A stretch of DNA of 64,000 bases, taken from NCBI RefSeq assembly GCF_030418295.1, contig NZ_JAUHQA010000001.1:2232001-2296000 (forward strand), in the 5' to 3' direction. Positions 11,599-21,446 of the stretch are shown one piece after another (within the stretch, counting starts at the first letter, position 1; each line of letters starts with the position of its first letter). The notes beneath the pieces were generated by a model. The model had not been told where the DNA came from. It did no database searches and was given only the letters and a program-made list of their open reading frames with translations. A program made the position numbers and the translations under genes. This DNA is from Demequina muriae (GTDB lineage: Bacteria; Actinomycetota; Actinomycetes; Actinomycetales; Demequinaceae).

Positions 11599-11671
11599 GG
11601 GGCTGTGGCGCAGCTGGTAGCGCACCTGCATGGCATGCAGGGGGTCAGGGGTTCGAGTCCCCTCAGCTCCA
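11599..11671 (+). tRNA. tRNA-Ala (anticodon GGC)
   Basis: 73 nt cloverleaf: acceptor GGGGCTG pairs with CAGCTCC (one G-T), D stem GCGC/GCGC, anticodon stem CCTGC/GCAGG enclosing loop ATGGCAT with anticodon GGC at 11633-11635, 5-nt variable loop, T arm AGGGG-TTCGAGT-CCCCT and discriminator A. The 3' CCA is not encoded. Confidence 0.97.
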
Positions 11672-11692
11672 CGATGTGTTGAGACAGCATCA

Positions 11693-11724
11693 CGAAGGCC
11701 GCTCCCTGTCAGGAGCGGCCTTCG
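11693..11724 (+). terminator. Rho-independent-type terminator after tRNA-Ala
   Basis: A perfect 13-bp stem: CGAAGGCCGCTCC at 11693-11705 pairs with GGAGCGGCCTTCG at 11712-11724 around a CTGTCA loop, followed by a weak T-rich stretch (CTGTTTCTG). It begins 21 nt after the tRNA. Confidence 0.8.
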
Positions 11725-11835
11725 CTGTTTCTGCATCGTTCTTCAGGCGGGCTCCGTCGATCGCTGAGGTCGCCCACGCTCGCCCCGGCCCGAGAGGGTT
11801 TCGGGCGTGAGCGATCCTGTGGGCCGCCCCCGTGC

Positions 11836-12921
11836 TCACCGTCGCAGAGGCACCTTGACGTCTCCGCCTCCCTCGTGGGTGATTCTGTCTCCCATCTGCG
11901 CGAACACTGGTGCGCTCACGAATCCGCCTGCGAAGAGAGCCTGCCCCTGAGTGAACGTCTGCGCCCGCCGAATGTGGTCTTCTGGCGCGAACCCGAACAC
12001 GGCGGTGAGTTCGGCAAGGTCGCGCGGGGCATTCACCCGCATCAGGCCGAGGTTGTCGCATTGCGAGAGCACGTTCGGGTGAATCTTGGTCGGTCGCTGG
12101 GTCGACAGGAGCAGCCACAGTCCGAACTTCCGTCCCTCGGCAGCAATCTGAATGATCTGCTCCGTGAGCGCCTTCTCCACCGCCGTGACGGGTGCCGGTG
12201 AGCAGAGGTTGTGTGCCTCGTCGATGACGATGAGGATTGGTCGCCGCTCTTCACGCCGCGACCACAAATGCTCCAGCACCGCGAGCGCGGCGACCTTGGG
12301 TTCTGCCGGGTGCTCGAACCCGCCGACGTCGAGAACCGTCGCGCGGGGACGTTCGTCGATGGTGTCAACGGCCGACGACCTGCCACGGGACCACAGATCC
12401 CACTCCAGGACTTGCAGGTTCTCCATGCGGTTCGCGAGCTGATGCCTCACGGGGTCGTTGCTGTCGCGAAGGAGACGCACCATCGCGGAAGCATCGAAGG
12501 CCTTGGCGTCGACGTCCAAGTGAAGGAGGACGTTGTACTCCTCCGCATCGGTGATGGGGTCGATCTGCAAGACGGCGGCCTTCGAGGCGGGGGAGAGGTC
12601 GAGGTAGCGGACACGCAGCGGATCCCCGGTGACGTGGCTCGAGCGGAGCACGCGTATATCGAGGTCGCTCCACCGGGATGCCAACACCTCCGATGACGGC
12701 GATCGAACCTCACGCAGCCGCACGTAATCCGCGTTGGGGTCGAGGATCAGGAGGGGAAGTTCGGTCTGAAGCAGCAACTGCTCCAAGACCACGCCCAGCG
12801 CATAGGTCTTGCCGCTACCGGATTGGCCACACCAGAACGTGTGCCGATTGAACCTGGTCGCGTCCAGGTGAGCGGGCGTGTCCGGTTCTTCGATGGAAGC
12901 TCCGATGTCAAGGAGAGTCAC
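11836..12921 (-). CDS. HerA/DUF87-type ATPase (P-loop DNA translocase family)
   Basis: 361 residues with Walker A GQSGSGKT near the N-terminus, Walker B ILIVIDEAHN and a sensor/arginine segment LLLSTQRPTKIHP, the arrangement of HerA/FtsK-like hexameric ATPases. I start it at GTG 12921, which has GAAGGGA 6 bp upstream; the open frame reaches 13167 but that extension looks non-coding. No NurA nuclease, SIR2 or DUF4297 partner is adjacent. The gene is alone, opposite in strand to its left neighbours and directly beyond tRNA-Ala. The family serves end resection, plasmid/phage functions and anti-phage defence; the role here is open. Confidence 0.8.
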   Translation of the reverse strand: MTLLDIGASIEEPDTPAHLDATRFNRHTFWCGQSGSGKTYALGVVLEQLLLQTELPLLILDPNADYVRLREVRSPSSEVLASRWSDLDIRVLRSSHVTGDPLRVRYLDLSPASKAAVLQIDPITDAEEYNVLLHLDVDAKAFDASAMVRLLRDSNDPVRHQLANRMENLQVLEWDLWSRGRSSAVDTIDERPRATVLDVGGFEHPAEPKVAALAVLEHLWSRREERRPILIVIDEAHNLCSPAPVTAVEKALTEQIIQIAAEGRKFGLWLLLSTQRPTKIHPNVLSQCDNLGLMRVNAPRDLAELTAVFGFAPEDHIRRAQTFTQGQALFAGGFVSAPVFAQMGDRITHEGGGDVKVPLRR

Positions 12922-13181: not shown

Positions 13182-13568
13182 ATGGTCATCGCAGCACTGA
13201 TCCTGGCGGGGCTTGCCGCCGTCGTGCACGTGTTCATCTTCTACCTCGAGTCGGTCACGTGGACCGGGCCGCGGGCGCGTGCCGTGTTCGGCACCACCGA
13301 GGCCGACGCGCAGGCCACCCGAGGGCTCGCGTTCAATCAGGGGTTCTACAACCTGTTTCTCGCGATCGCGGTGGTGACGGGCATCGTCCTCATGGCGGCC
13401 GGGAACACGGTAGCGGGAGCGACGCTGGTGTTTGTGGGCGCCGGCTCGATGGCCGCCGCCGCGCTCGTGCTGGTGCTCTCCGACCGCGCCTATGCGAGTG
13501 CGGCACTCAAGCAGGGCGCGCTTCCCGCACTCGCTGTGACCCTGCTTGCGGTGGGACTGGCGCTCTAA
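13182..13568 (+). CDS. DUF1304 membrane protein
   Basis: 128 residues, four predicted membrane spans; the N-terminal span with VHVFIFYLESVTW and the NQGFYNLFLA segment match DUF1304 proteins as I know them. Start ATG 13182 is set by GAGAGGA 6-7 bp upstream; the longer frame to 12990 has no support. Function unknown in the family. Its TAA stop overlaps the stop of the convergent flavoprotein gene. Confidence 0.85.
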   Translation: MVIAALILAGLAAVVHVFIFYLESVTWTGPRARAVFGTTEADAQATRGLAFNQGFYNLFLAIAVVTGIVLMAAGNTVAGATLVFVGAGSMAAAALVLVLSDRAYASAALKQGALPALAVTLLAVGLAL

Positions 13569-14809
13569 GCGCGGTCGGCATCGGCGCGGCGCTCGAGCCA
13601 TGCGAGCGCGCCGTGTGCCGCCACGACCCCCATGCTGAACGAGGCCTGCAGCAGGTAGCCGCCCGTGGGGGCCTCCCAATCAAGCATCTCGCCGGCGACG
13701 AACGTGCCGGGCATGCGGCGCAGCATGAGTTGCTCATCCACCTCGCTCCAGGCGATGCCGCCCGAGGTCGAGATCGCGCGGTCGATGGGCATCGTTCCCG
13801 TCACCACGACGGGCACCGCCTTGATGAGCGCGGCAATGGTGGCGGCGTCGTGGGGCAGCGTGCCGCCGAAGGACTCCCGCACGAGCCCGATGGAGGCGGC
13901 GTCGAGGCCGATGGACCTCCGCAGCCAGTTGGTGGCGGAGTCCTTGGGCCGGCGCTTGCCGAGGCGTGTCGTCACCTCCCCGAGCGAGACCTCCGGTCGG
14001 AGATCGACCTTGAGGACGCATCGGCCGGATTTGGTGAGGGCTGCGCGAATCGGGGCACCTAGCGCGTAGATGAGTCCACCCTCGACTCCCGTGGTGGTGA
14101 GCATCAGCTCTCCGCGGCGCGGCTCGCCGCCAGCGACGGTGACGGACACGTTCTTGAGGGGCGTGCCCGCGAACCGATTGGCGAAGACATCGGACCACTC
14201 GACGCGCACGCCGACGTTCGCGGCCTCGAGGGGTGTGACGTGGATGCCTCGCGCGGAGAACGGACCCACCCATGTGCCGTCCGCTCCCAGGTGAGGCCAG
14301 GATGCGCCACCGAGAGCGAAGACGGTGGCATCGCTCGTGAGTGCGCGGGTGGTGCCGGATTCGTCCGTGATGAGAAGTGCGCCGTCAGGGGAGTCGCCGC
14401 CAGCCCAGCCAGACCAGGATGTCCGGCGCTCGATGTGTACTCCCAGCTCGGCCAGCCGTCCGAGCCACGCGCGAAACAGCGGCGTCGCTCGGAACGCCTG
14501 CGGGAAGACCCTCCCGCTGGACCCGATGAACGTGGGCTCCCCAAGGTCGGCGGCCCACGCGCGGAGGTCGTGCGGACCGAACTGCGCGAGCATCGGCGCG
14601 ATCCGCTCCGCCGACTCGCCGTAGCGCGTGACGAAGCGGTCCCGGTCCTCGCTGTGGGTGAGGTTCAGCCCGCCGTGGCCCGCGAGCAGGAACTTCCGAC
14701 CCGGCGACGGCATGCGCTCGTGGACTGTCACATCGATCCCGGCGCTGGCCAGCACCTCGGCGGCCATCAGGCCCGCTGGCCCGCCACCGATGACGCGCGC
14801 GGTAGGCAT
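13565..14809 (-). CDS. HI0933/BaiN-like flavoprotein (TIGR03862-type)
   Basis: 414-residue FAD-dependent oxidoreductase: N-terminal dinucleotide fold (VIGGGPAGLMAAEVLASAG), then GRKFLLAGHGGLNLTHSE typical of HI0933-like proteins, and C-terminal GTFVAGEMLDWEAPTGGYLLQ with SFSMG. Substrate unknown. Its ATG overlaps the mrpG stop (TGATG on the minus strand), so it is the seventh, translationally coupled cistron of the Mrp operon. At the other end its TAG and the DUF1304 TAA share the four bases 13565-13568. Confidence 0.88.
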   Translation of the reverse strand: MPTARVIGGGPAGLMAAEVLASAGIDVTVHERMPSPGRKFLLAGHGGLNLTHSEDRDRFVTRYGESAERIAPMLAQFGPHDLRAWAADLGEPTFIGSSGRVFPQAFRATPLFRAWLGRLAELGVHIERRTSWSGWAGGDSPDGALLITDESGTTRALTSDATVFALGGASWPHLGADGTWVGPFSARGIHVTPLEAANVGVRVEWSDVFANRFAGTPLKNVSVTVAGGEPRRGELMLTTTGVEGGLIYALGAPIRAALTKSGRCVLKVDLRPEVSLGEVTTRLGKRRPKDSATNWLRRSIGLDAASIGLVRESFGGTLPHDAATIAALIKAVPVVVTGTMPIDRAISTSGGIAWSEVDEQLMLRRMPGTFVAGEMLDWEAPTGGYLLQASFSMGVVAAHGALAWLERRADADRA

Positions 14810-15144
14810 CAGTCGAGCCGAGCGCTGGTGTCGTCCTCGAGCTCGTTGAAGGTCACGCGCCGCAGGGGAGAGCGGGCGAGGTAGGCCGAGCGCGCGAGCG
14901 CCATCGATCCCACCGCCGAGGTGAGCAGCTGGGCGATGACGATCAGCACCGCCACCCCCGCATTCGACACCGTGAAGTCGTGAAGCAGCACACCGACCAC
15001 GATGAGCACGAGGCCGATGCCGCCGGCAGTGCCGACCGCGGAGACGTGGGTGTAGGCGTCGGGGAACCTCAGCAGCGCAAGGGCGCCGGTCACGAACACC
15101 ATGGCGCCCAGGACGATGATGACTGCGCCGATGATCTCTAGCAC
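14809..15144 (-). CDS. mrpG: Mrp cation/proton antiporter subunit G
   Basis: Small membrane subunit of the multi-subunit Na+(K+)/H+ antiporter, 111 residues, three hydrophobic spans with the conserved LLRFPDAYTHVSAVGTAGG motif of MnhG/MrpG. GTG start 1 bp beyond the mrpF stop. The C-terminal ~25 residues are charged and cytoplasmic. Confidence 0.93.
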   Translation of the reverse strand: MLEIIGAVIIVLGAMVFVTGALALLRFPDAYTHVSAVGTAGGIGLVLIVVGVLLHDFTVSNAGVAVLIVIAQLLTSAVGSMALARSAYLARSPLRRVTFNELEDDTSARLD

Positions 15145-15145
15145 G

Positions 15146-15403
15146 CTATCTCCTCCCTCGCGTGAGCGCGCGCGCCAGCGCGATGGTGCTGAGGAATGCC
15201 AGCAGCGCCGCGATGAGCACGATCTCGAGCGCCGACGGCGTGTCGAGCAGCACGCCGAACAGCGCCAGCAGGGCGATCACGCAGAACATCAGCATGTCGC
15301 CCGCGATCGCGCGCTCGGCATCCGTGGGGCCCGTGACCATGCGGTACACGGTGGAGACCCCCGCGAGGCCCACCAGCACGATGCCGATGACGACGCCGAT
15401 CAT
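15146..15403 (-). CDS. mrpF: Mrp cation/proton antiporter subunit F
   Basis: 85 residues, three hydrophobic spans, with YRMVTGPTDAERAIAGDML, the MrpF signature. Start overlaps the mrpE stop by 4 bp; next gene mrpG begins 1 bp after its stop. Confidence 0.93.
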   Translation of the reverse strand: MIGVVIGIVLVGLAGVSTVYRMVTGPTDAERAIAGDMLMFCVIALLALFGVLLDTPSALEIVLIAALLAFLSTIALARALTRGRR

Positions 15404-15765
15404 GACGGACCCCCCTCGCGGCGCATCGCCGACAGCAGGCGCCCCTCGATGTCTCGGAGCTCGGCCCGCAGGTGGTCGGCGTCAGGGGAGTACATGCCGT
15501 GGACGTAGATGGTGTGCGCGACGTCTGACTTCTCTGGGGTGTGGTGGCCCACCGTCAGCGTCCCCGGCGTGAGGGTGATGCACGTCGACAGCAGCGTGAT
15601 CTCGGCGTCGGTGCGGCAGCGCGAGTCGTAGCGCGCGATGCCGGGCGTCGAGTCCTGTCCGCGTGTGAGCGCGTCGCGGAGGACCACGGCGTTGGTGCGC
15701 GCCACCAGCCAGGTGAACCACAGCAGGAAGGCGACGACGCGCACGGGCCAGGTCAACCAGGTCAT
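15400..15765 (-). CDS. mrpE: Mrp cation/proton antiporter subunit E
   Basis: 121 residues; short for MrpE because the first membrane helices are reduced, but the domain TLLSTCITLTPGTLTVG and VHGMYSPDADHLRAELRDIE is clearly MrpE. Overlaps mrpD and mrpF by 4 bp each, as expected for translational coupling. Confidence 0.93.
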   Translation of the reverse strand: MTWLTWPVRVVAFLLWFTWLVARTNAVVLRDALTRGQDSTPGIARYDSRCRTDAEITLLSTCITLTPGTLTVGHHTPEKSDVAHTIYVHGMYSPDADHLRAELRDIEGRLLSAMRREGGPS

Positions 15766-17318
15766 GGGTTCGTCACCGCCTCGATGTAGGCCGAGGTGTC
15801 CACGAGTCCGTCGGCGGCGGTCGCAGACAGTCCCAGCAGCAGCTCTGCTCCCAGGCCGAGCCCGATGGTGAGCACCGCCAGCACGACCGCCGGGGCGGCG
15901 AGAGCGACGCCGATACGCGGCTTGGTGCCCGTGTCGAGCACGAGGGCGGTGCCGTCGCCTGGCGTCGACCCCGCGACAGGCAGGTCCTTCTCCTCGTGGG
16001 TCCGCAGCACCTGGTCAGGAGGCCGGCCCCAGAACACGCCGTTCCAGATCCTCAGCATGGCGATCAGCGTGATGAGGCTCACCACCAGCATCGCTACGAC
16101 GGCCAGGACTTGACCGGCGTCGATCGCGGCGATGATGAGGCTCAGCTTGGCCACGAAGCCGGAGAACGGCGGAATGCCCGCGAGCGACAGCGCTGCGACT
16201 AAGAAGGCGGCGGCGATCCATGGCTCGCGCTTGGTGATCCCCCACACGTGACCGATCGTGGCGGTGCCGTAGCGCTCCTCGATCGCGCCGGCGGACAGGA
16301 ACAGCGAGGTCTTCACGACGATGTGGTGGAGCAGGTAGAAGATGCCCGCGGCGAGCCCGGCTCCGGTGAACAGCGCGACTCCCAGGAGGATGTAGCCGAT
16401 CTGGCTCACGGTGCTGAACGCCAGGATCGTCCTGCTGTCCTTCTCGCCCAGTGCGCCGAGGCCGCCGATCACCATTCCGGCGATGACCACCGCGACGCCG
16501 ATCCACAGGAACCTCTCCTCGCCGTCGAAGACCACGGCGTACAGCCGGTAGATGGCGTAGATCGCGACCTTGGCGTGGAGGGCGGAGAACAACGCGGTCA
16601 TGGCGGGAGACGTCGCGGGGTAGGCCCGCACGTACCACCCGTGCACCGGCACCGCCGCTGCCTTGATGCTGAGCGCGAAGATGCAGATCGCCATGGCGAT
16701 CGCCACGGTGTCGTCCTCCGCAGCGACGCCTGCGAGCTCGGCCAGGTTGACCGTGCCGGCGGTGCCGTACACGAAACCCACGCCGGTGAGGAAGATCGTC
16801 GATGTCAGCAGGTTGACCGTCACGTACAGCCGTGCGCCCGCGATCTGGCGGAGCGGAGCAGAGCCCGGCGCCGCCAGCACGAACAAACCGTAGGCCGGCA
16901 GCAGCATCACCTCGATGAACACGAACATGTTGAACAGATCCGCGGTGAGCAGCGCGCCGCTGACCCCTGCGACCATCACCAGCAGGAGCGGGGCGAAGAA
17001 CGGAGAGGCGGCGCGGCCCGATGCCATCGCGAAGACCACGGACACGATCGTGACGAACAGGGTGAAGGTGAGCATCAGCGCGGTGAACATGTCCGCCGCG
17101 AAGGGGATGGCGATGCCGAACGGCCACAGGCCCACCGCATCGGCCCACGCGCCGCCGTCGCGGAACGCGACCACCAGGGCGACGGCCCCGGCGAGCGCGC
17201 ATCCCAGCACGGCGAACATCGCCACCGCCTGCACACGCGGCCGACGCCCGAGGATGGTGAGTGCCCCTGCCACCACGAGCGGGATGGCGACGAAGAGGGG
17301 AAGCATCGAGGCGGTCAT
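15762..17318 (-). CDS. mrpD: Mrp cation/proton antiporter subunit D
   Basis: 518-residue polytopic protein of the NuoM/NuoN/MrpD family (Proton_antipo_M domain), one of the two proton-pumping-type subunits. Characteristic segments are VPVHGWYVRAYPATSPAMTALFSALHAKVAIYAIYR split across two helices, the HHIVVKTSLFLSAG lysine helix, and GIPPFSGFVAKL. Four-base overlaps with mrpC and mrpE. Confidence 0.95.
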   Translation of the reverse strand: MTASMLPLFVAIPLVVAGALTILGRRPRVQAVAMFAVLGCALAGAVALVVAFRDGGAWADAVGLWPFGIAIPFAADMFTALMLTFTLFVTIVSVVFAMASGRAASPFFAPLLLVMVAGVSGALLTADLFNMFVFIEVMLLPAYGLFVLAAPGSAPLRQIAGARLYVTVNLLTSTIFLTGVGFVYGTAGTVNLAELAGVAAEDDTVAIAMAICIFALSIKAAAVPVHGWYVRAYPATSPAMTALFSALHAKVAIYAIYRLYAVVFDGEERFLWIGVAVVIAGMVIGGLGALGEKDSRTILAFSTVSQIGYILLGVALFTGAGLAAGIFYLLHHIVVKTSLFLSAGAIEERYGTATIGHVWGITKREPWIAAAFLVAALSLAGIPPFSGFVAKLSLIIAAIDAGQVLAVVAMLVVSLITLIAMLRIWNGVFWGRPPDQVLRTHEEKDLPVAGSTPGDGTALVLDTGTKPRIGVALAAPAVVLAVLTIGLGLGAELLLGLSATAADGLVDTSAYIEAVTNP

Positions 17319-17653
17319 GAGCGGCCCTCCTCGTCGATCTCGGATTCCACGGTGGTGTCGTCGTCCTGGTCGCGGCCGGTCACGGCGAGCACCAGCATGA
17401 GGATCGTGATGGCGAACGCGATGACGATCGCGGTCAGCACGAACGCCTGGGGCAGGGGGTCCGCCACCGTCGAGAGGTCGTCGGGCGCACCGAACGGCGC
17501 GTCCCGTCGGGAGGCGCCACCTGCGGCCATGATCACCAGGTTGGCGGCGTGGCCGAGCAGCACGAAGCCGAGCACGATGCGCAGCATCTCGCGCTTGAGC
17601 AGCAGGTAGACGGCGCCCATGACGAGCAGGCCGGCGGTGATCGCGAGGGTCAT
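17315..17653 (-). CDS. mrpC: Mrp cation/proton antiporter subunit C
   Basis: 112 residues, NuoK-like with three spans (LLVMGAVYLLLKREMLRIVLG; GHAANLVIM). A short acidic C-terminal tail is present. Overlaps mrpA and mrpD by 4 bp each. Confidence 0.94.
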   Translation of the reverse strand: MTLAITAGLLVMGAVYLLLKREMLRIVLGFVLLGHAANLVIMAAGGASRRDAPFGAPDDLSTVADPLPQAFVLTAIVIAFAITILMLVLAVTGRDQDDDTTVESEIDEEGRS

Positions 17654-20451
17654 GCGGTCACCTCCTGGTGGTCGGGCGTCTGAGGGGCGTCGGCGTGCGG
17701 ATCGTCACCGTCGTCGCCCTCGTCGAACCCGTGCGCCGCGTCACGCTCGTGCGGGCGCGGCAGGCCGAGCAGGTTGAAGGCCGACAGCACGATGCCGATC
17801 ACGGCAAGGTAGACGCCCACGTCGAACACCAGGGCCGACGTCAGCTTGTAGCCCAGGATCTCCGTGTACAGCGGCGCAAGGAAGGAGCCCTCTGTCAGCC
17901 CGAACAGGCCCGTGCCGGCGCCGATCACGATGCCCGCACCGATCAGCGCCAGATACGGCAGGCGGACGCGCCGCACATCGTCGGTGGCGGACATCAGATA
18001 GATGAGGGCGAATCCCGCGCCGCCGACGAGTGCCGCGATGAAGCCACCGCCCGGCTCCTGGTGACCGCGCAGCAGGAGGAAGACGGACAGGACCACGATC
18101 AGCGGGCCGACGAGCCGGGCCAAGGTGCGCGTGAAGACGGAGTTGTCGAGCGCATCGGCCAGTGGCGAGCTTTCGTCGATCTCGATCCGGCGGGCCGATG
18201 CGGGCCTGCGCGAGCGCAGCAGGGTCGCGATCACGATGCCGGCGACACCGAGCACGGAGAGCTCCCCGAGCGTGTCGAGGGCGCGGAAGTCCACCAGGAT
18301 CGTGTTGACGATGTTGGCGCCGCCGGTGACGCCTTCGCCCTCGGTCAGGTAGTACTCGGCCGCGTTCGACATCGACCGGCGGCCCGTGAGGGCCCACACT
18401 CCCAGCGTGGTGGTCAGCCCCGCCGCGATGGCGATCGCGAGGGAGGGCAGGCTGCGACGCAGCGGCGTGGGCTTGAAGTCGGTGGGCAGCCGGCGCAGCA
18501 GCAGCACCATCACCGTGACGGTGAGGATCTCGACGAGCAGCTGAGTCAGGGCGACGTCCGCCGCGCCCAGCGACATGAACCACAGCGTCATGGCGAATCC
18601 GACCACGCCGACCACGACGACGGCGCCCACCCGCGTGGACACCATCATGGCGGCGATGACGCCGGCCGCGAGCAGCACGACCAGGACCCAGTCCAGCGGC
18701 CGTGACGTGTTCCCGTCGACGGCGGGCAGGCCCGAGATCCCGAGCACCCCCACGGCGCCGATGCCGATGGTGACGATGACCGGCATGGCGAGGTGGAGAC
18801 GTGGCGCGGTTGTGCCGGACCAGCCGCTCACGACGCGGCCCGTCCGGGCGAGACCGGACAGGATGGCCTCGACCACGTCGAGTGCGGAGAAGGGCAGACG
18901 GTACTTGAGCAGCACCGGCTGAATCCTCTTGCGCGCCAGCACCAGCAGCACGCCCGTGCTGATGACGAGGACGGAGATGAGCAGCGGCAGGTTGAAGCCG
19001 TGCCACAGCGCGAGGTGAGTCTCGACGGTCGTGCCGGAGGCTGCGGTCGCCGCGCCGGAGATGAGCGGGTCGAGCGTGAACGGCAGCAGCCCGAGCACCA
19101 GTCCGGCGAGCGCGGCCAGGCTCGGAGCGGCCCACACGGCGGGGCGCACCTCGGTCACTTCCCGGCCGTCCGGGTCGTGGCCGCGCGCGCCCATCACGAT
19201 GCGCGCGGAGTACGCGAAGGTCAGGGCCGACGCGACGGCGGCCGCCGCGGTGATGGCGATCGGTCCCCACGGCGTCGCCGGAGCATCGACGAAGGCCGTG
19301 AACATCGACTCCTTGCTGACGAATCCCAGCAACGGTGGCAGGCCCGCCATCGACGCGGCGGAGATGGTGATCGCTCCGAGCGTCACCGGCATGCGGATGC
19401 GCATGTGCGTCAGCGCGCGGATGTCCCGCGTGCCCGCACGATGGTCGATCACGCCGACGAACAGGAACAGTGCGGACTTGAACAGGGCGTGGGCCACGGT
19501 GTGCACCGTCGCGGCCTTGATCGCCTCAGGGGTGCCGACGCCGATCATCGCCACCAGCAGACCCAGCTGGCTGATCGTCGAGTACGCGAGCAGCTCCTTG
19601 AGGTCGTACCGGCGCAGCGCCGCGACGGCGCCCAGCAGCGCGGTGATGAGTCCCGAGGTGATGAGCATCGTGTTCCATAGTGGAACCTCGGAGAACGCGG
19701 GGGAGAAGCGCAGCAGCAGGTAGATGCCGGCCTTCACCATCGCCGCGGCATGCAGGTACGCGCTCACCGGGGTGATCGCGACCATCGAGTCCGGAAGCCA
19801 CGCCTGGAACGGGAACTGCGCGGACTTCGTGAATGCGGCGATCGCGAGCAGTGCGATCACCGTGGTCGCGACGGCCGTGTCCTCCTGCCACATCGGATCC
19901 GCGATGATTTCGCTCAGCTGGGTGGTGCCGGTGGCCACGGCCATGGTCGTGACGGCACCGAGCAGGCTCAGCCCACCCATGGCGGTCACCAGCAGCGTGC
20001 GGATGGCGGGTCTGTGGGCCTTCGATCCTGAGCGCGCGATCAGCAGGAACGAGCACAGCGTGGTGAGTTCCCATGAGACGAACAGCAGCACCACGTCGTC
20101 GGCGAGCACCAGCATGGTCATCGCGGCCGCAAAGGCCGTCATGAGGGTGAAGTACCTGGTGTGGCGGCCGACGGCGAAGTAGCGAGAGCTGTAGGTGAGC
20201 ACCGCGGCGCCGATCAGCAGCACGAGCAGCATGAAGGTGAGCGAGAGCCCGTCGAGCTTCAGGTCGAAGCCGATGCCCAGGGTCGGCATCCACGGCACAT
20301 GCTGAGTTCCCGAGCCGAGCACGATGAGTCCGGCCGCTGCCGCAAGGAGCGGGATCGAGAGGATCCAGCCGGCGCTGCGTCCGAGCAGGCGCGTCACGAG
20401 CGGAGCCAGGACACACGTGGCGACGACAGTCGCTACACACGCGAGGAGCAA
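17650..20451 (-). CDS. mrpA: Mrp antiporter subunit A fused to subunit B
   Basis: 933 residues, about 22 hydrophobic spans. The NuoL-like N-terminal part contains DGLSLTFMLLVLLIGAAVL and the proton-channel helices (SAQFPFQAWLPDSMVAITPVSAYLHAA split over two segments; HALFKSALFLFVG). Around residues 600-660 comes the DUF4040-type MrpA domain, and from about 790 an MnhB domain with RGHQEPGGGFIAALVGG, so MrpB is fused and there is no separate mrpB. The start codon appears to be TTG 20451, directly after a T-run and GGTGG; no other in-frame start fits. Leader of about 120 nt if the AT-rich box at 20575 is the promoter. Confidence 0.95.
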   Translation of the reverse strand: MLLACVATVVATCVLAPLVTRLLGRSAGWILSIPLLAAAAGLIVLGSGTQHVPWMPTLGIGFDLKLDGLSLTFMLLVLLIGAAVLTYSSRYFAVGRHTRYFTLMTAFAAAMTMLVLADDVVLLFVSWELTTLCSFLLIARSGSKAHRPAIRTLLVTAMGGLSLLGAVTTMAVATGTTQLSEIIADPMWQEDTAVATTVIALLAIAAFTKSAQFPFQAWLPDSMVAITPVSAYLHAAAMVKAGIYLLLRFSPAFSEVPLWNTMLITSGLITALLGAVAALRRYDLKELLAYSTISQLGLLVAMIGVGTPEAIKAATVHTVAHALFKSALFLFVGVIDHRAGTRDIRALTHMRIRMPVTLGAITISAASMAGLPPLLGFVSKESMFTAFVDAPATPWGPIAITAAAAVASALTFAYSARIVMGARGHDPDGREVTEVRPAVWAAPSLAALAGLVLGLLPFTLDPLISGAATAASGTTVETHLALWHGFNLPLLISVLVISTGVLLVLARKRIQPVLLKYRLPFSALDVVEAILSGLARTGRVVSGWSGTTAPRLHLAMPVIVTIGIGAVGVLGISGLPAVDGNTSRPLDWVLVVLLAAGVIAAMMVSTRVGAVVVVGVVGFAMTLWFMSLGAADVALTQLLVEILTVTVMVLLLRRLPTDFKPTPLRRSLPSLAIAIAAGLTTTLGVWALTGRRSMSNAAEYYLTEGEGVTGGANIVNTILVDFRALDTLGELSVLGVAGIVIATLLRSRRPASARRIEIDESSPLADALDNSVFTRTLARLVGPLIVVLSVFLLLRGHQEPGGGFIAALVGGAGFALIYLMSATDDVRRVRLPYLALIGAGIVIGAGTGLFGLTEGSFLAPLYTEILGYKLTSALVFDVGVYLAVIGIVLSAFNLLGLPRPHERDAAHGFDEGDDGDDPHADAPQTPDHQEVTA

Positions 20452-20672: not shown

Positions 20673-21446
20673 ATGACACGCATGAAGCGCGTGGTCGTGA
20701 TCGGGGCGACGGGGTCCATCGGCCGGGTGGTCGTTCCGGCGCTTGCCGCCCACGGCCTCGCGCCGGTCGCTGCCGTCCGTGACCCGGACCGCGCGCGCGA
20801 ACTCCTGCCCAATGTCGAGACCATCCGTGCCGACGTGACCGACCCGGCTGGGCTCGCTCGGGCCGTGCGCGGGGCCGACGGCATCGTCCTGGTGCACGGC
20901 TCGGATCGCCGCCCCGCGGACGTCGACTACGGCGCAGTGCCGGCCGTGCTCGAGGCTCTCGACGGCGCGCGTCCGCGGGTGGTGCTGATGACGTCGATGG
21001 CGGTGACTCACGAGACGGGTTCGTGGCGGGAGATCATGCGGTGGAAGGCGCGCGGCGAGCGGCTGCTGCGGGCCAGCGGTGTGCCGGCCACCATCGTTCG
21101 CCCCGGGTGGTTCGACGCGCAGCCGCCCGACTTTCGCGGCGTGACGCTCGAGCAGGGAGACCGCACTCCGGTCGACAGTCGCAGGGGAGTCTCCCGGCGC
21201 CATATCGCCGATGCGATAGCCCAGTCCCTGCTCCACGACGAGGCGGTGGGGGTGACGTTCGAGCTGTTCTCGGCTCCCGGCGACGCCCTGACTGACTGGC
21301 GGGCGGCGTTCGGGGCGCTCACTCAGGACGCGACGGGCGCGTTCGATGCCGCGCTCGACCCCACGGGGCCGCCGCTCTCCCATGAGCCCGATCGCGTGCG
21401 CCAGGACATGGAACGGCTGAGGGCGGCCGGCGGAATCGTCACGTAG
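20673..21446 (+). CDS. NAD(P)-binding, NmrA-like atypical SDR
   Basis: 257 residues with N-terminal dinucleotide motif VVVIGATGSIGRVVVPAL, then an atypical short-chain dehydrogenase core; VVLMTSMAV and the MRWKARGERLLRASG segment replace the classical YxxxK. Resembles NAD(P)H-binding sugar-epimerase/NmrA-type proteins; enzymatic or sensor role cannot be told. Start ATG 20673 (ATG 20682 possible). Ends 27 bp from a convergent gene. Confidence 0.8.
   Translation: MTRMKRVVVIGATGSIGRVVVPALAAHGLAPVAAVRDPDRARELLPNVETIRADVTDPAGLARAVRGADGIVLVHGSDRRPADVDYGAVPAVLEALDGARPRVVLMTSMAVTHETGSWREIMRWKARGERLLRASGVPATIVRPGWFDAQPPDFRGVTLEQGDRTPVDSRRGVSRRHIADAIAQSLLHDEAVGVTFELFSAPGDALTDWRAAFGALTQDATGAFDAALDPTGPPLSHEPDRVRQDMERLRAAGGIVT

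Follow-up and report, generated by a model that had tools for sequence, protein, structure and literature searches.

A solitary HerA-type ATPase without a HAS barrel behind a tRNA-Ala gene of Demequina muriae: an apparently acquired accessory gene

The stretch of Demequina muriae DNA analysed here (64,000 nucleotides; hereafter, the window) contains, between a tRNA-Ala gene and a gene for a DUF1304 protein, a single gene for a HerA-type ATPase (Table 1). A preliminary description of this locus took 11599-12921 for one feature; both genes within this span are real, but they are separate genes, a tRNA and an ATPase. The central observation of that description stands: the tRNA-Ala with its terminator lies to the left of a solitary HerA-type ATPase and the DUF1304 protein to the right, with neither a nuclease nor an effector adjacent. 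In particular, the genes scanned with Pfam between 10946 and 22142 comprise His_Phos_1, the ATPase itself, DUF1304, the HI0933-like flavoprotein, the antiporter operon of six genes and a pair of NAD(P)-binding genes, so that the ATPase adjoins no nuclease, SIR2 or DUF4297 gene. The antiporter operon encodes MnhG, MrpF, MnhE, two Proton_antipo_M proteins and an Oxidored_q2 subunit, and the largest of its products additionally contains MnhB, MbhD and MbhE domains. From about position 20673 rightward, the genes match those behind tRNA-Ala in most of the relatives examined. The 13-pair hairpin after the tRNA is also present in D. aestuarii. The GC content of the ATPase gene is 63.8% and its GC3 is 79%, each the second lowest among the 57 window genes of at least 100 aa; the other genes of the block between 11.8 and 20.5 kb have unremarkable GC3 values (0.85-0.95), so that the block and the ATPase may differ in history.

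Table 1. Features of the ATPase locus in the window
Feature	Position	Strand	Basis and remarks
tRNA-Ala(GGC)	11599-11672	+	ARAGORN; left border of the variable Demequina junction
Terminator-like hairpin	11693-11724	+	13 pairs, 10 of them G-C; between the convergent tRNA and ATPase genes
HAS-barrel-less HerA-type ATPase, 361 aa	11836-12921	-	GTG start at 12921; Pfam, alignment, predicted model
Walker B DEAHN, ATPase residues 234-238	12208-12222	-	alignment
Walker A GQSGSGKT, ATPase residues 32-39	12805-12828	-	alignment
DUF1304 protein, right-hand neighbour of the ATPase	13182-13568	+	Pfam, 101 bits
HI0933-like flavoprotein	13565-14809	-	Pfam
Mrp/Mnh-type Na+/H+ antiporter operon, six genes	14809-20451	-	Pfam
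NAD(P)H-binding gene, first to the right of the block	20673-21446	+	Pfam, comparison with relatives

The GTG start of the ATPase is common to the D. aestuarii orthologue, and a purine-rich stretch precedes it in both genomes; the in-frame 5' extension of the open reading frame in the window is not kept in D. aestuarii (447 codons open versus 373). The first Pfam, PADLOC and NCBIfam scans used the longest reading frame (443 aa), and Pfam gave the same result for the 361-aa protein, with matches to DUF87 (46.4 bits, cut-off 23.2) and HerA_C (29.7 bits, cut-off 22). A search of named genomes found 164 relatives, of which 80 were kept, all matching nearly the whole query and, in 78 of the 80 loci, 356-389 aa long. 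The Walker A pattern GQSGSGK[TS] is present in 79 and the Walker B motif DEAHN in all 80 of the locus proteins. In an alignment of 46 rows, comprising the window protein and 45 of the 80 loci, K38, D234, E235, R264, K265 and Q275 are invariant, and the segment NRHTFWCGQSGSGKTYALGVVLEQ is very strictly conserved. The features of the RecA-type core by which a member of the DUF87/HerA superfamily is recognised, i.e., Walker A, the DE pair of Walker B, an arginine finger and a Q sensor, are all present; R264 would be the arginine finger and Q275 the sensor, by analogy with the HerA/FtsK domain of DndH as described in an excerpt of PMC10853773. Two loci (L058 and L080) have stops within the translated stretch, which may reflect gene decay or sequence errors. 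Two Microbacterium genomes, Leaf320 and UFMG61, each harbour two divergent copies of the ATPase (L024/L040 and L030/L037, respectively).

The AlphaFold model of the 361-aa protein, predicted from the 46-row alignment (pLDDT 92.4, pTM 0.92), has SsoHerA (4d2i_B) as its best PDB match in Foldseek (E = 3.8e-19). In the VIA alignment, residues 1-353 of the model correspond to residues 119-544 of 8xav_A (Z 34.8, 330 residues aligned), and residues 1-354 to residues 118-471 of SsoHerA 4d2i_B (Z 33.6, 318 residues aligned) and to residues 135-600 of DrHerA 7wrw_A (Z 27.1). Across the HerA rows, the first residue of the model pairs with HerA residues 111-153, and the first 110-150 residues of HerA, which form the HAS barrel, are wholly without counterpart in the model. 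Inside the aligned range, 96 residues of 8xav_A (330 of 426 aligned) and 36 residues of 4d2i_B remain unmatched, so the insertions of the ATPase are shorter, and the tail of HerA beyond residue ~545 is missing as well. No HAS family was detected in the ATPase by Pfam at E <= 0.01 (443-aa frame) or 0.001 (361 aa). With the starts placed according to the alignment, 19-40 residues lie ahead of the NRHTFW motif in 79 of the 80 loci, the exception being the broken copy L080. Furthermore, the reading frame ahead of this motif stays open for fewer than 100 codons in 38 of 79 loci, which therefore cannot encode a HAS barrel of 110-150 residues; in the remaining 41, at least 100 codons are open or the frame reaches the end of the locus, and long open frames in GC-rich DNA need not code. 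Thus, the missing HAS barrel is a trait of the ATPase family. According to excerpts of the respective reports, the contact of HerA with NurA lies on the HAS barrel (PMC9960219) and that with DUF4297 lies on the HAS domain (PMC11291478); by analogy, the HAS-less form would be unable to dock partners of the NurA or DUF4297 kind. Because the docking barrel is missing, the ATPase looks solitary by architecture.

No partner family is constant across the loci examined. Neighbours were counted for 78 loci, with L032 and L044 missing because the gene caller did not call their ATPase. The strands of the left and right neighbours show no preference (21, 20, 20 and 16 loci, and one further locus where only one side has a neighbour), and the commonest neighbour family within three genes occurs in at most 14 of the 78 loci. 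Clustering of all frames was tried and dropped, since shadow frames dominated it; called genes were cleaner. The scans covered 150 of the 155 immediate neighbours (all except L058:7163-8425, L064:5403-5594, L094:7143-7724, L096:5557-5901 and L100:7130-7831), and among these 150, PADLOC at E <= 1e-10 yielded four families only, mad3 (two matches), mad8 (two), AriA (two) and mad2 (one); the mad8 and AriA matches probably correspond to two ABC ATPases, in L042 and L049, as a Walker A pattern was detected in these two neighbours only. One neighbour has a DNA methyltransferase match in PHROGs. NurA was found in none of 39 genomes, D. muriae included; the same search was positive in 7 of 14 control genomes. 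A protein of about 185 aa, apparently membrane-bound (L064:7080-7637 and relatives), lies near the ATPase in 12 of the 78 loci and shares its strand in 11 of these; it has no Pfam match at E <= 1e-5.

There is, nevertheless, a neighbourhood that recurs. DUF1254/DUF1214 proteins account for 8 of the 150 immediate neighbours, and SulP, DUF6325, SfLAP, LuxR-type and SHOCT proteins also recur nearby, in loci from several genera (L037, L040, L043, L045, L046, L050, L051, L053, L055 and L063); the hosts of the DUF1254 group are Microbacterium, Leucobacter, Glutamicibacter, Arthrobacter and an actinomycetotal MAG. In 14 genomes picked for loci with such genes, there are 26 DUF1254 and 15 DUF6325 matches, at 0-3 per genome, so that adjacency by chance appears unlikely on what is an informal reckoning over related loci. 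However, DUF1254 occurs on either strand and is absent from other loci, and this setting therefore looks like a shared accessory neighbourhood rather than an obligate partner.

The distribution of the ATPase is sporadic. A full-length copy is found in 2 of 44 Demequina genomes, D. muriae and D. aestuarii (all genome counts include that of D. muriae itself); some match at E <= 1e-3 exists in 17 of the 44, partial only in 15 of them and, in 14, limited to weak partial matches of about 19-22 bits. Another Demequina genome (G039, locus L004) has a 57-bit partial match to residues 215-339 within a 619-codon frame, perhaps a full-size HerA-like protein. The genome that carries the ATPase has, in an 875-codon frame (L225), a second DUF87 match, which is weak. 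Within the order, matches at E <= 1e-30 occur in 15 of 94 genera (23 of 297 genomes) and, within the class, in 16 of 394 genomes; at E <= 1e-40, 7 of 296 genomes of the phylum have a match, including two from outside the class. The order, class and phylum surveys were confined to Actinomycetota, and the 78 relatives in the tree are all labelled Actinomycetota. In this tree of 79 rows, from which L058 and L080 were omitted given the stops in their translated stretches, the Demequina pair is nested among Microbacteriaceae copies (support 96/92 for a 7-row set and 97/82 for a 12-row set). The larger group around the pair, of 30 rows, also takes in Dietzia, and Pseudarthrobacter and Glutamicibacter have near-identical copies within a mostly Microbacteriaceae clade; in view of these two placements, transfer looks recurrent. 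Taken together, the ATPase is an accessory gene that, judging from sequence comparison, was apparently acquired horizontally.

The site where it resides is variable in Demequina. Of the 41 genomes with a match, 30 loci were fetched, and in 29 of these, D. muriae and D. aestuarii included, tRNA-Ala lies behind a pair of histidine-phosphatase (phosphoglycerate-mutase-like) genes. The stretch behind the tRNA was compared in 15 of 42 other species, chosen by the best histidine-phosphatase matches (18 kb each, 11.6 kb in one). In 13 of the 15, inserts of differing size behind the tRNA give way to 4-17 genes that resemble the window genes beyond 20.6 kb; one more species (G014) has a single such backbone gene and another (G012) has none. 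The first backbone-like match starts 63-8217 bp behind the tRNA, some of these matches being of low identity (43-51%) and possibly paralogues. With conserved backbone genes and differing inserts, tRNA-Ala thus marks a variable junction. The ATPase, DUF1304 and antiporter genes are found behind tRNA-Ala in none of the 15 other species. With full-length copies of the ATPase in only 2 of 44 Demequina, the conserved presence that would have marked it as a core gene is not what the comparison shows. An HI0933-like gene lies 11 kb behind tRNA-Ala in G012. At this junction, the block at 11.8-20.5 kb is confined to D. muriae and D. aestuarii among the 17 Demequina compared. The antiporter operon is accessory too, given that its 518-aa subunit occurs in only 6 of 44 Demequina genomes; relatives of the DUF1304 protein are present in 41 of the 44.

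Could the tRNA then have served as an integration site, as first proposed? The variable 3' side and the accessory status of the gene agree with this idea, but the expected marks of integration were not found. A search of both strands of the 64-kb window for the last 15, 18, 20 or 25 bases of the tRNA, with up to 20% mismatch, returned only two 15-base matches with three mismatches each and no copies of 18, 20 or 25 bases, so the anticipated downstream repeat of the tRNA 3' end is not supported, and Pfam detects no integrase in the nine called genes at 11.8-20.5 kb. Among the direct-repeat families between 11.4 and 20 kb, which number at least 60, the 20 largest are 68-89% alike to their reference copy and were taken as GC-rich coding background. 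Furthermore, proximity to a tRNA is not a general trait of the ATPase family: of 101 loci, five have a tRNA within 150 bp of the ATPase. The flanks of 24 of the 101 contain a tRNA or tmRNA, with its 3' end toward the ATPase in 19 of these 24 (p = 0.003; duplicates L194, L195, L208 and L209 removed, tRNA calls of more than 96 bases filtered out), in a count that may retain other duplicates shared by the named and unnamed sets; after collapse by eye to genus and anticodon, this bias shrinks to about 10 of 15 (p = 0.15) and was dropped. The closest relatives outside Demequina (L022 and L027) lie 1.8 and 0.6 kb downstream of a tmRNA with its 3' end facing the ATPase, which is suggestive only.

Comparison of the D. 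muriae and D. aestuarii ATPases gives dN 0.106, dS 0.691 and dN/dS 0.15, and for ten other genes of the region dN/dS is 0.02-0.18 and dS 0.19-0.49. At 82% amino acid identity versus 85-99% for those ten genes, the ATPase evolves faster than its neighbours but, with this dN/dS, is constrained. The higher dS of the ATPase may point to two separate acquisitions or to recombination. A dN/dS of 2.37 for the DUF1304 gene was disregarded as the product of a badly aligned piece (52% versus 84% identity). The ATPase is intact and under purifying selection and, given the nesting among Microbacteriaceae, the low GC and the dN/dS, it is apparently an acquired, working gene that has not decayed.

Which function could this gene perform on its own? 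On balance, and with modest confidence, we favour the reading that this accessory gene encodes a self-sufficient ATPase that translocates DNA, built on the HerA core (the RecA fold with a helical insertion) but dispensing with the HAS barrel. The preliminary description had offered a self-sufficient housekeeping type as one option; self-sufficiency is what we favour, whereas a housekeeping role is at odds with the presence of full-length copies in just two Demequina species. As the fold and motifs suggest, the ATPase would form a ring, hydrolyse ATP and move or clear dsDNA without a dedicated nuclease, and would persist as a one-gene accessory function. A Microbacterium-like donor would have passed the gene to an ancestor of D. 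muriae and D. aestuarii, where it entered at the variable junction behind tRNA-Ala that now also carries the antiporter block. Candidate roles are action against invading DNA or DNA maintenance under stress. Without the HAS barrel, such a ring may lack stability or depend on a partner, which might be encoded at a distance, and the DUF1254/DUF1214 genes next to the ATPase are unexplained by a self-sufficient motor.

The strongest competitor, one that we consider unlikely without regarding it as far-fetched, is that the ATPase cooperates in trans with a nuclease or effector whose gene lies at another site in each host, such as a chromosomal end-resection nuclease, and is solitary only in gene order. 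Known HerA complexes, as presented in the excerpts of PMC9960219 and PMC11291478 already cited, drive a nuclease or an effector; the very strict conservation of NRHTFWCGQSGSGKTYALGVVLEQ would suit a conserved interaction, and the hosts found are all Actinomycetota, though three of the surveys covered that phylum alone. However, the domain on which NurA and DUF4297 dock is missing, the search for NurA, the one nuclease sought in this way, was negative in all 39 genomes, and transfer across families would demand that a partner be available in every host. A bolder extension of the self-sufficient motor, which we rate as improbable, is that these proteins are a distinct class of single-gene HerA motors, devoid of both the HAS dock and a nuclease, that would protect actinobacteria unaided (e.g. 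by taking hold of incoming dsDNA and displacing or extruding it) and spread as a stand-alone cassette.

The structural matches extend to VirB4 (4ag6_B, Z 25.3), TrwB (1e9s_A, Z 19.9) and the packaging ATPase B204 (4kfu_A, Z 18.9) and, along with the frequent transfer seen in the tree, bring to mind a domesticated motor of a mobile element, a packaging or conjugation coupling ATPase that has become either a servant or a parasite of its host. This origin is quite improbable: these matches are surpassed by the best HerA chains (Z 30-35), although some HerA chains reach only Z 19-25; plasmids and phages yielded no relative covering at least 80% of the protein, only partial matches (551 plasmid records and three phage records), and viral contigs contain no full-length relative, one search returning nothing and another a single partial match of 34%. 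Neither is there an integrase, transposase or relaxase match for the 150 neighbours among the best 25 of 122 and the best 25 of 38 families.

Less credible still is the suggestion, made in the preliminary description, that the gene is the remnant of a defence or mobile module, specifically of a two-gene HerA defence system that lost its effector. The patchy distribution and low GC are compatible with a remnant, and the PADLOC HerA models match mainly its C-terminal half, but the catalytic motifs are intact, the same short form is found in 78 of 80 relatives, dN/dS is 0.15, and no neighbour family is common to more than 14 of 78 loci. Moreover, the antiphage HerA models NF042943 and NF042944 give 75.5 and 63.1 bits for the 443-aa frame against cut-offs of 800 and 850, and the PADLOC matches among the 150 neighbours amount to just four families with at most two members each. 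Finally, the notion of a core housekeeping gene of the family, to which the intact gene and its presence in many genera might point, has next to no standing, being refuted by the sporadic distribution (full-length in 2 of 44 Demequina and present in 23 of 297 genomes of the order).

The HerA motor is regarded as one half of a two-part machine. A motor that is selected for and repeatedly transferred while devoid of the docking domain would thus pose the question of what a HerA motor does alone, and this ATPase, being small and coming from culturable actinobacteria, is readily testable.

How, then, does this protein compare to the systems that are already known? With HerA proper (SsoHerA, 4d2i; DrHerA, 7wrw), it shares the RecA-type core with the insertion, Walker A, Walker B, the EGRKFG motif and the Q sensor, but it has no HAS barrel and is 361 aa long as opposed to 500-696 aa for the HerA chains. 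Unlike the HerA-NurA end-resection system, D. muriae has no NurA, either adjacent to the ATPase or elsewhere in the genome. The closest solved structures are the antiphage complexes DUF4297-HerA and SIR2-HerA (8xav, 8wiv and 8j4u; Z 34.8 for 8xav_A), in contrast to which the ATPase has neither an adjacent effector gene nor a HAS domain; the C-terminal hook of DUF4297-HerA, as placed by the excerpt of PMC11291478, lies in the tail past the aligned range. The mad8 component of MADS (PDLC04140) is likewise short and is the sole PADLOC model matched near its full length (27-289 of 314, in 46 of 46 members), at a weak score of 61.9 bits; no mad gene set adjoins the ATPase loci, mad3 and mad2 matching only two and one of the 150 neighbours, respectively. 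The C-terminal ATPase domain of DndH (7es4) belongs to the same fold class (Z 25.0 over 306 residues), but DndH is, according to the excerpt of PMC10853773, a large multidomain protein of the DndFGH system, whereas here the ATPase domain stands alone. Judging by titles and the openings of abstracts, we recognised no description of a HAS-less solo HerA of actinobacteria in the open-licence literature. Since the HAS barrel is among the features that define HerA and proved absent when tested for, the protein is best described as a HAS-less variant rather than HerA proper, one whose core and fold nonetheless fit the HerA name.
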